From: Planctomyces sp.
GTDB lineage: Bacteria > Planctomycetota > Planctomycetia > Planctomycetales > Planctomycetaceae
Direction of reading: 5' to 3'
NCBI GenBank assembly: GCA_019636235.1
Contig: JAHBXW010000004.1
Location: 62,001-126,000 of the forward strand
Length of the DNA: 64,000 bases
Below the pieces are notes generated by a model. The model worked only from the letters and a program-made list of their open reading frames with translations. It did no database searches and was not told the origin of the DNA. How positions within the stretch are numbered: position 1 is the stretch's first letter; the number at the start of each line of letters is the position of its first letter. Of the stretch, positions 37,979-40,889 are shown one piece after another. The position numbers and the translations under genes are program-made.

Positions 37979-38599
37979 ATGACCATGACGCTGCCCGAGA
38001 CACGCCATTCCCTGTTCGTCCGCCTGTCGGATGCGGCCGATCATCAGGCCTGGCAGGAGTTTGCGACGATCTACGAGCCGGCGGTATACCGGTTTGCGCG
38101 GCGCAGCGGACTCCAGCACGCCGACGCAGCGGAGCTGACGCAGGACGTTCTGGCACGGCTCAGCCAGTCGCTGCCGGACTGGTATGACGGCCCCGGACGC
38201 GGGCCGTTTCGGCGGTGGCTGTTCGCGATTGCCCGCTCGCGACTGATCGACGGCTGGCGGCGCAGCCAGCGTCGGCTGGCGGCCCTGGGAGCGCCGTTGG
38301 GAGGCGACGCGATTGAATCCCTGGCGGTGCGGGACGACGGCGAGCCGTTCGAGGTCGAGCTGCGGCGGGAAATGATCCGGGCCTCAGCCCGGGCGCTGCG
38401 ATCGGAGTTTCAGGAAACGACATGGCTCGCGTTCTGGAAGACGACGATCGAGGGTCTGAGTCCACAGGCGGCGGCGGAGGCGCTCGGCATGACGCCCGGG
38501 GCCGTGTACGGCGCGCGGAGCCGCGTCCTGGCGAGGTTGCGGACTCAGGTGCGACACACATGGTCGGCCTGGACCGCCAGCGGGGAGGAGCGGCCATGA
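37979..38599 (+). CDS. ECF sigma factor (planctomycete type)
   Basis: 206 residues, ATG at 37979 with GGAG about six bases upstream. SLFVRLSDAADHQAWQEFAT and ADAAELTQDVLARLSQSLPD give region 2; RRWLFAIARSRLIDGWRRSQ follows; GLSPQAAAEALGMTPGAVYG is region 4's helix-turn-helix. The stop overlaps the ATG of a zinc-finger kinase gene (ATGA), the classic planctomycete pairing in which the kinase or its finger replaces an anti-sigma factor. Target promoters cannot be told here. Confidence 0.93.
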   Translation: MTMTLPETRHSLFVRLSDAADHQAWQEFATIYEPAVYRFARRSGLQHADAAELTQDVLARLSQSLPDWYDGPGRGPFRRWLFAIARSRLIDGWRRSQRRLAALGAPLGGDAIESLAVRDDGEPFEVELRREMIRASARALRSEFQETTWLAFWKTTIEGLSPQAAAEALGMTPGAVYGARSRVLARLRTQVRHTWSAWTASGEERP

Positions 38600-40206
38600 A
38601 ACGCACCGCGGAAAAGTGTTCGCCGGAAGAGTTGCAGCGATACCTGGCAGGGGCGTTGTCGCCGGAGCGGGAGTCGGCTGTCTGCGCGCATCTGGAAACG
38701 TGCGGCCGCTGCCGGGATGAGCTGGAGGATACGGCCGGAGGGGAGTCCTGGCGCAGCGAAGTGATGAATTCGCTGACGGACGACGCGGTGGATGCGGCGG
38801 CCCGGTTGACGTTGCTTCATCCGCAGCCGGACGCGGTCGACGCGCGGGCGCTCGCCGAGCAGTCGCTGGCGGCGCTGTCGGTCATTCTGACGCCGACGGA
38901 CGATCCCCGCATGCTGGGTCGGATTGGCGCGTACGAGGTGGCGGGGGTCATCGGACGGGGCGCGATGGGGGTCGTGGTGAAGGCCCTGCAGCCGGCGCTG
39001 AACCGGTATGTCGCGATCAAAGTGCTGGCCCCGGAACTGGCGGCGAACGCAGCGGCGCGGGTGCGGTTCGAACGGGAGGCCCAGGCCGCGGCGGCCGTCG
39101 TTCATGAGCATGTCGTGCCGATCCATGCGGTCGGGGAATCCCGCGGCACGCCCTACCTGGTGATGCAGTACGTCTCCGGCGGTTCGCTGGAGAAGCGGCT
39201 GGCCGACGAGGGGTTGCTGACGCCGGCGGCCGCCTTGCGGATCGCGCTGCAGATCGCGAAAGGGCTGTCCGCGGCGCACTCTCAGGGTCTGATCCATCGG
39301 GACATCAAGCCGGGCAACATTCTGCTGGAAAGCGGACTGGAGCGGGTGCTGCTGACGGACTTCGGCCTGGCGCGGGCTGTCGACGACGCGACGCTGACGA
39401 ACAGCGGCTTCATTGCCGGCACGCCGCAGTACATGTCGCCGGAGCAGGCGCGGGGGGAGTCGATCGATCACCGGTCGGACCTGTTCAGCCTGGGAAGCGT
39501 GCTATACACGCTGCTGTCGGGTCGTCCGCCGTTCCGATCTGAAACGGCTTATGGCCTGTTGCGCCGCATCTGCGACGACCCGCATCGGCCGCTGGTTGAT
39601 CTCAATCTGCAGATCGCACCCTGGCTGAGCGGACTCGTGGACCTGCTGCTCGCGAAAGATCGCGACGAGCGGTTCGGGGACGCGGAGGAGGTCGCGGAGC
39701 TGTTGAGCGCCTGTCTGGCGCACATTCAGAGTCCCGCGCAATGCCCGCTGCCCGGGGAGATCGCGCGGTTGGCCGTTCCGCGGCGCGAGTTGATGCGGAA
39801 GGTTCGGCGGGCGGCGGCCGGAGCGGCCTTGCTGACTGCGGCTGCAGGCTTGGCGTCACTCGCTGCGCTGTGGCCGGGCGTGGAGAGATTGAACCAGTCT
39901 GATGCGGCAGGCGTCGAATCGTCGCTTGCGGACGACTCCGCCACCGGCGTCGTAACAGCGGAACTCACGGAAGGGATCACGGCGACGGCTGCTTCTCGCT
40001 CGCTGGTTCCGGAAGGTCGGAGGATCGACGAGGAACTGCAGACGCTGAGCGCGCGGATCAACGCGTTTGAGTTGACTCTGGAGCCGCGACGTTCGACCGG
40101 GCCGGGTTTGTGGGATGCGATGTGGGCGGAGGCGGTCTCCGCCCTGCAGCGGTTGGAAACGGGACAGGCATTGGAGGCGGACTTGCTGCATCCGGCCGTT
40201 CCGTAA
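38596..40206 (+). CDS. Serine/threonine protein kinase with anti-sigma-like zinc finger
   Basis: 536 residues. The N-terminus has H32xxxC36xxC39 (AHLETCGRC), the zinc-finger pattern of ZAS anti-sigma domains. The kinase follows: glycine loop IGRGAMGVVV (119-128), Lys142 (AIKVL), HRDIKPGN (234-241), DFG (255-257) and the APE-equivalent SPEQ. A membrane helix lies at about 405-426, and a periplasmic tail of about 110 residues contains coiled coil. All catalytic residues are present. It is translationally coupled to the ECF gene and is probably its membrane-bound regulator. Confidence 0.95.
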   Translation: MKRTAEKCSPEELQRYLAGALSPERESAVCAHLETCGRCRDELEDTAGGESWRSEVMNSLTDDAVDAAARLTLLHPQPDAVDARALAEQSLAALSVILTPTDDPRMLGRIGAYEVAGVIGRGAMGVVVKALQPALNRYVAIKVLAPELAANAAARVRFEREAQAAAAVVHEHVVPIHAVGESRGTPYLVMQYVSGGSLEKRLADEGLLTPAAALRIALQIAKGLSAAHSQGLIHRDIKPGNILLESGLERVLLTDFGLARAVDDATLTNSGFIAGTPQYMSPEQARGESIDHRSDLFSLGSVLYTLLSGRPPFRSETAYGLLRRICDDPHRPLVDLNLQIAPWLSGLVDLLLAKDRDERFGDAEEVAELLSACLAHIQSPAQCPLPGEIARLAVPRRELMRKVRRAAAGAALLTAAAGLASLAALWPGVERLNQSDAAGVESSLADDSATGVVTAELTEGITATAASRSLVPEGRRIDEELQTLSARINAFELTLEPRRSTGPGLWDAMWAEAVSALQRLETGQALEADLLHPAVP

Positions 40207-40283
40207 GCAAGAGCTCGGGCATTGGCCCCTGCAATGACGATGTGACCTGCCGGCGCGATCCGGCCATTTCGATGAGGAAACCG

Positions 40284-40889
40284 ATGACCATGTGGAAACA
40301 ATCGATGGCCGGCGTGCTGGTGCTGGCCGGCGTGGGAACCGCGCTGTGGACTCCGTCGGCGCAGTCGCAGCAGCCGGTTCCAGGCCCGCCCGCCACCGTG
40401 CCTGGCCCGCCGCATATCGACGTGTTCACGGCGCCGCAGCGCGCGACCGTTTACGCGGTGCAGCCCGGGCAACCGCCGCAATGGCACAATGTGCTGGTGG
40501 GGCGGGGTGCGGACGAAAAGAGCCAGCGCCTTGGGGAACTTGTCCGGGAGTACAAGAGCCAGGACGAGAACGCCGACGAGGCGGCCAAAGCGGCGACGAA
40601 GGAGGAACTCACGACCCTGCTGCGGGAACAGTTCGATGCCCGCCAGGCGCAACGGCAGCAGGAACTCGCGGACCTGGAGGCCCGAGTTCAGAAGCTGCGC
40701 GAACTGCTGAACCGCCGACAGGAGGCGCGGGACGAGATCGTCAACAGCCGGCTGACGGAGCTGCTCCGCAGCGCGGACGGCCTGGGCTGGGATGAGGCGG
40801 GGGACGTTGAGCTCCGGTTCACGACTTCATTTGACGGCTTAGCGCCCGTAGCGCCGATGCCGGCGCAGCCGCCGCGACCAGGACGCTGA
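40284..40889 (+). CDS. Exported coiled-coil protein of the ECF/kinase group
   Basis: 201 residues from ATG 40284 with AGGA six bases upstream. A signal peptide (MAGVLVLAGVGTALWTPSAQ) leads into a Pro-rich stretch and then a strong Glu/Ala/Arg coiled coil (roughly 80-150: LGELVREYKSQDENADEAAK, RQQELADLEARVQKLRELLN). No family recognised. It follows the kinase by 77 bases and ends in an intrinsic terminator, so it is likely the third gene of the operon and may be a periplasmic partner of the kinase tail. Confidence 0.7.
   Translation: MTMWKQSMAGVLVLAGVGTALWTPSAQSQQPVPGPPATVPGPPHIDVFTAPQRATVYAVQPGQPPQWHNVLVGRGADEKSQRLGELVREYKSQDENADEAAKAATKEELTTLLREQFDARQAQRQQELADLEARVQKLRELLNRRQEARDEIVNSRLTELLRSADGLGWDEAGDVELRFTTSFDGLAPVAPMPAQPPRPGR

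Follow-up and report, generated by a model that had tools for sequence, protein, structure and literature searches.

The locus analyzed here lies in a 64,000-nucleotide stretch of Planctomyces sp. DNA (assembly GCA_019636235.1, contig JAHBXW010000004.1, positions 62,001 to 126,000), hereafter referred to as the window. It consists of three consecutive plus-strand genes, namely those for an extracytoplasmic function (ECF) sigma factor, for a membrane Ser/Thr kinase with an N-terminal anti-sigma-type finger, and for a helical protein that is probably secreted. The sigma factor gene (positions 37979-38599) was identified by matches to sigma-family profiles and encodes 206 amino acids. The kinase gene (38596-40206; 536 amino acids), recognized from Pfam matches and a structural model, begins before the sigma factor gene ends; that is, the sequence ATGA at 38596-38599 contains both the kinase start codon, at 38596, and the sigma stop codon TGA, at 38597-38599. 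The preliminary description of this DNA had placed the three genes in this way, with the kinase ATG overlapping the sigma stop, and that layout is confirmed. Its further wording, that the two are "fused by overlap", is not: sigma factor and kinase are separate genes that share four bases. The third gene ends at 40889 and has three possible start codons (40272, 40284 or 40290). A terminator had also been proposed, and a stable hairpin does follow the third gene, at 40913-40940 (-23.0 kcal/mol, z -3.4), but it ends in a weak tract of about four U and is not among the calls of a consensus terminator scan, and we therefore describe it as terminator-like.

The N-terminus of the kinase matches the zf-HC2 family over residues 13-40 with 28.4 bits, above the Pfam cut-off of 22.2. 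The ligands of this finger are C8, H32, C36 and C39, encoded within 38617-38712. Thus, the HxxxCxxC motif previously likened to a zinc-associated anti-sigma (ZAS) finger is present, with C8 as a fourth ligand that had not been noted. Across 184 aligned sigma-kinase pairs, the last three ligands (H, C, C) are each kept in 183, while the first ligand position holds Cys in 164 pairs and His in another 13 (177 together); because these pairs were selected by a finger profile, the counts report on the fate of the ligands, and not on the frequency of the finger. A profile built from 21 kinase N-termini, chosen because they contain the finger, was compared with the whole PDB. The matches were DdvA (E-value 3.3e-5), RsiW (1.1e-3), a CHAT protein with a DdvA domain (2.2e-3), RslA (0.011) and ChrR (0.54), the last of these being level with the first unrelated chain (0.55). 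The zf-HC2 family itself is matched by 14 of the 21 N-termini at E <= 1. In the predicted structure, the score for local confidence (pLDDT) is 90 or higher over approximately residues 11-50, and helices are formed by residues 10-17, 23-33, 37-59, 62-74 and 83-97. The nine best Foldseek matches of this N-terminal model are all chains of ChrR, RslA or RsiW, at weak E-values of 0.53-2.8, and comparison of the model with solved anti-sigma factors gives Z-scores of 3.6-4.7. Homology to solved anti-sigma factors, retention of the ligands and linkage to ECF genes (see below) together give good support to the earlier proposal that the kinase carries an anti-sigma-type finger of its own.

The proteins retrieved in these comparisons are class I (ASDI) anti-sigma factors. 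As described in passages of PMC7406223, RsiW, RslA, ChrR and DdvA share the HxxxCxxC motif with a fourth ligand and a helical domain; their genes lie beside that of their own ECF sigma factor, and they are often bound to the membrane. The protein encoded in the window differs from them in continuing, C-terminal to the finger and ahead of the membrane helix, into a Ser/Thr kinase whose motifs are intact; DdvA, to judge by the names of the PDB entries, also seems to bear the domain on a larger protein, of the CHAT type. A finger on a separate protein is found elsewhere in the window, about 5 kb from the kinase locus, where a second ECF sigma factor gene (45829-46449, minus strand) is accompanied by that of a small protein (45307-45825, minus strand) with a zf-HC2 match at the cut-off and, by eye, a membrane segment.

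The catalytic domain of the kinase (residues 113-364; 38932-39687) matches Pkinase (PF00069) with 164 bits. In an alignment of 14 kinases, the columns of K142, E161, the HRD motif at 234-236, N241 and the DFG motif at 255-257 are invariant, in agreement with the intact catalytic core reported earlier. With its glycine loop, the catalytic Lys, HRD, DFG and one membrane helix, the protein has the features of a Hanks-type membrane Ser/Thr kinase. The membrane helix, also reported earlier, is apparent both from hydropathy (residues 407-425, 39814-39870; mean 1.83) and from the model of the whole kinase, in which N-terminal helices precede a kinase domain modeled with confidence, and a helix at residues 396-425 precedes a tail of mostly low confidence. 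This tail (residues 426-536; 39871-40203) would lie on the extracytoplasmic side. Among the 179 relatives with a sufficiently long kinase match, HRDxKxxN is found in 178 (the exception is locus L222) and DFG in 169; most finger kinases therefore look active, as far as these motifs indicate. The other ten have DLG or DMG (L172, L176, L178, L182, L185, L190, L195, L223, L225 and L226). Past the kinase domain, a single membrane segment is present in 99 of the 118 kinases that are complete, none in 15 and at least three in 4. In only one of the 118 does a membrane segment lie between finger and kinase domain; its absence from this place in the remaining 117 suggests a common pathway for kinase and finger.

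The sigma factor is a two-domain ECF protein. It matches Sigma70_r2 with 46 bits and sigma70-ECF with 60.6 bits, both above the cut-off; region 4 scores 21 bits, below the Pfam cut-off of 25.7. Its score against TIGR02984 (planctomycete ECF subfamily 1) is 30.7 bits, far from the curated cut-off of 183.75. In the place of the DAED motif of region 2.2, the alignment shows DAAE (residues 49-52; 38123-38134). In the 184 pairs, the first position of this motif is Asp in 177 and the fourth is Asp or Glu in 182, and the third is Ser or Thr in only 2. That is, a phosphate need not supply charge at this place, since the fourth position is already acidic. The exchange of DAED for uncharged residues that include a Thr or Ser phospho-acceptor, which is a trait of ECF43-type sigma factors, is not found in the window sigma factor.

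The arrangement of sigma factor and finger kinase is real, exceeds what chance would give, and is widespread in planctomycetes. With the sigma factor as query at E 1e-15, a match is found in 51 of 59 related genomes and, across the phylum, in 79 or more of the 392 genomes, this second number being a lower bound, with at most 8 candidates scored per genome. From 230 loci we obtained 221 sigma relatives (distinct by exact sequence, with one broken gene, L025, counted twice). Counting the window, 185 of these precede an in-frame finger kinase; 8 precede a kinase without a finger match, 9 precede a finger without a reachable kinase, and 19 are followed by neither. The 185 rows represent 184 kinases, and 180 clusters at 97% sigma identity. 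The nearest ATG lies within 100 bases past the sigma stop in 131 of them, and 55 could have an overlap of the ATGA type. Named hosts of the pair include Singulisphaera acidiphila (L139), Rhodopirellula baltica (L132), Zavarzinella formosa (L118) and Limnoglobus roseus (L116). As for the eight kinases without a finger match, four show a weak finger by eye (L039, L175, L181 and L196), and one has the domain without its ligands (L014); the other three are considered below. Locus L144 has a tandem of two such sigma genes ahead of a single finger kinase, which is why the kinases number one fewer than the rows. A number of distant sigma relatives (L219, L224, L227, L228, L230, L197, L218, L045-L047 and L050) have no downstream match to kinase or finger.

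Within the genome from which the window is taken, 4 of 5 finger kinases lie directly after an ECF gene, versus 4 of 39 other kinases (Fisher p 0.002). In this count, 46 kinase matches were taken as 44 genes and adjacency was assigned by coordinates; moreover, one of the four ECF-adjacent kinases in the second group, on contig C2, shows a weak finger. The finger kinase outside the four (C45:127216-128277, L003) has no ECF neighbor. This favors an alternative in which the finger is unconnected with the sigma factor and serves the kinase as a redox or zinc sensor, since zinc ligands could sense thiol stress, or as a dimerization module; fingers are otherwise linked to ECF genes, however, and the lone kinase has a matching lone sigma factor on a different contig of the same genome (C42:253946-254512, L036), so we regard this alternative as very improbable. 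The nearest relatives of the two lone genes are the respective partners in one and the same set of adjacent pairs, among which is a pair from the same genus (L031; identity 70% for the sigma factor and 72% for the kinase). Judging from these similarities, they look like a cognate pair that was probably split and yet retained.

The third protein has a hydrophobic, signal-like segment near its N-terminus (residues 11-25), on account of which it is probably secreted, as was previously proposed; the coiled coil ascribed to it is a candidate, judged by eye. Outside the genome under study, relatives of this protein occur in 13 rows; in 9 of these, the relative shares contig and strand with a sigma match and lies 1.9-4.7 kb downstream of it; for the other 4 rows there is no sigma match among the matches listed. 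Together with a contrast in tail length among the kinases, this bears out the earlier inclusion of the third gene in the unit. Specifically, where the tail is 250 residues or shorter, 20 of 28 kinases are followed, no more than 300 bases away, by a gene with a signal-peptide-like start, compared with 14 of 71 for longer tails; on the reverse strand, as a control, the numbers are 0 of 28 and 11 of 71. Among eight relatives scanned, the kinase is followed by WD40 repeats in five and by DUF2807 in one. The sensor may therefore be fused to the kinase or else be provided by a secreted partner. It should be noted that 80 named loci come from one sigma subgroup, so that WD40-tailed kinases are over-represented in the comparison; this clade dominates the long-tail group, which makes the result one contrast and not many, and the tails of L085, L107, L117 and L063, counted as "short", appear to be cut rather than short.

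Taken together, these data lead us to a reading that we consider fairly probable: the membrane kinase would hold the sigma factor by means of an N-terminal class I anti-sigma domain, and its kinase domain would drive the release. In this mechanism, the three genes would form one envelope signaling unit, in which the kinase is a membrane-anchored class I anti-sigma factor and a Ser/Thr kinase in a single chain. The N-terminal zinc domain (approximately residues 8-60) would keep the co-translated ECF sigma factor at the membrane. The kinase domain would be switched by the extracytoplasmic tail, by the secreted third protein, or by both, and the sigma factor would be released when the kinase phosphorylates either the finger-linker region or the bound sigma factor itself. 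The domain layout and the conservation of the pair are observed; that the sigma factor is bound, inhibited and, upon a signal, released is inferred.

Several observations weigh against this mechanism. Three sigma relatives (L191, L220 and L229) precede a kinase without any finger. In the kinases of L014 and L205, the pattern of the N-terminal domain is kept and the zinc ligands are lost; zinc-free class I anti-sigma domains likewise are without these ligands. No column of the finger has Ser or Thr in at least half of the sequences, so a release by phosphorylation of the finger has no conserved site; the sole such column of the N-terminal region lies immediately before the kinase domain. Conversely, Ser or Thr occupies one column of the linker between sigma2 and sigma4 in 137 of the 184 sigma factors, so that the sigma factor may be phosphorylated instead. 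Mean-field direct-coupling analysis of the 184 pairs (effective number 143) gave no enrichment for the N-terminal region: among the 100 strongest couplings between the proteins, 29 fall there, versus 28.6 expected; the sequences are too few for this result to decide. In a mirror-tree analysis, distances between fingers follow those between sigma factors beyond what the kinase domain explains, with a partial r of 0.38, compared with a mean of 0.20 and a maximum of 0.34 for 60 entropy-matched sets of kinase columns. This signal is, however, unspecific, in that contiguous segments of the kinase N-lobe reach a partial r of 0.36, and the plain correlations of linker and finger are nearly equal (0.558 and 0.559). 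We thus take it as suggestive, and do not count it as proof of contact. Natural sigma-kinase fusions, looked for as another sign of contact, are absent among the 232 frames with a sigma match.

The alternative that fares best is that the sigma factor is inactive until the neighboring kinase phosphorylates it, as in EcfP and EcfK, and that the finger merely docks it. According to passages of PMC8103513 and PMC8999054, EcfP-type sigma factors have lost the DAED motif, and a phosphate restores the charge; EcfK, as reported in part of PMC13147305, is phosphorylated in the linker between sigma2 and sigma4, at T106. Here too the kinase gene adjoins the ECF gene, the finger could serve for docking, and the linker column with Ser or Thr lies in the same linker as T106, though equivalence of the positions is not implied. 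What makes this alternative unlikely is the region 2.2 motif, whose fourth position is nearly always acidic and whose third position almost never bears an acceptor, in contrast to the ECF43 sigma factors, which lose the motif (PMC8999054, in part). In addition, the window sigma factor itself has Pro at the linker column, albeit in a loosely aligned region. Less likely still is that the protein is a plain membrane anti-sigma factor whose finger inhibits the sigma factor until proteolysis or a periplasmic signal releases it, as for RseA and RsiW, with the kinase serving other targets. A finger followed by a single membrane helix is indeed the classical anti-sigma layout, and the sigma factor with its separate small zf-HC2 protein at 45307-46449 shows such a pairing in the same window. 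Nevertheless, the kinase motifs are retained, and the lack of a membrane segment between finger and kinase domain in nearly all complete kinases suggests a kinase that acts in the same pathway.

Both ingredients of the preferred mechanism, that is, an ECF-linked kinase and a zinc anti-sigma domain, are of already known kinds. The ECF43 pairs EcfP/PknT and EcfK/PknS likewise consist of an ECF gene that adjoins the gene of a Hanks-type kinase (passages of PMC8999054), PknS being a transmembrane kinase. Unlike in those pairs, the sigma factor of the window keeps an acidic region 2.2 motif, and its kinase has an N-terminal anti-sigma-type zinc domain. In the SigH-RshA-PknB system of Mycobacterium tuberculosis, a zinc anti-sigma factor lets go of its ECF sigma factor once a Ser/Thr kinase phosphorylates it (passages of PMC8999054 and PMC13147305); there, anti-sigma factor and kinase are separate proteins, whereas here a single chain, whose gene adjoins that of the sigma factor, combines the two. 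In the portions of the open-access literature covered, a scope outside which the main ECF classification papers fall, we found no ECF-linked kinase described as bearing an anti-sigma domain, and an earlier description may exist.

A further comparison is provided by the planctomycete TIGR02984 sigma factors, whose genes also adjoin Hanks kinase genes in related genomes. The motif was read in these with a regular expression that requires an acidic fourth position and that 5 of 30 loci failed; in the 25 readable loci, the third position is Ser in 23. A kinase lies nearby in 13 of the 25, and none of these 13 kinases has a finger; beside these fingerless kinases, the third position is Ser in 11 of 13 sigma factors. 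By eye, kinases of TIGR02984 loci (L242-L267) have another N-terminal helical motif, mostly beside sigma factors with DASD. On a FastTree tree of the sigma factors, the finger state changes 3 times and the Ser state 4 times; with so few evolutionary events, the contrast between finger and Ser shows two classes and no statistical law. Tentatively, and with somewhat less confidence than we place in the mechanism itself, we suggest that planctomycetes may have two classes of kinase-linked ECF sigma factors. In one, a sigma factor with a Ser phospho-switch would be paired with a plain kinase. In the other, the kinase itself would be the anti-sigma factor, and would sense, phosphorylate and release, with sensing by a fused WD40-type domain or by a secreted partner encoded just downstream.

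These ideas bear on groups that have already been tabulated. In passages of the review PMC8999054, ECF59, ECF61, ECF62 and ECF217 are listed under phosphorylation with planctomycete examples, which are given for four of the six groups of the table; the kinase-linked groups other than ECF43 keep a DAED-like motif, and for the kinases of these four groups, those passages make no mention of a domain of the anti-sigma kind. The existence of two classes, if true, would explain why kinase-linked ECF sigma factors outside ECF43 combine a DAED-like motif with an apparent absence of an anti-sigma factor. If the family described here belongs to those groups, the missing anti-sigma factor would be the N-terminus of the kinase, and the question would become a simple one of binding and release. 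If the mechanism proposed is correct, one and the same protein would both hold the sigma factor and sense the external signal for its release.

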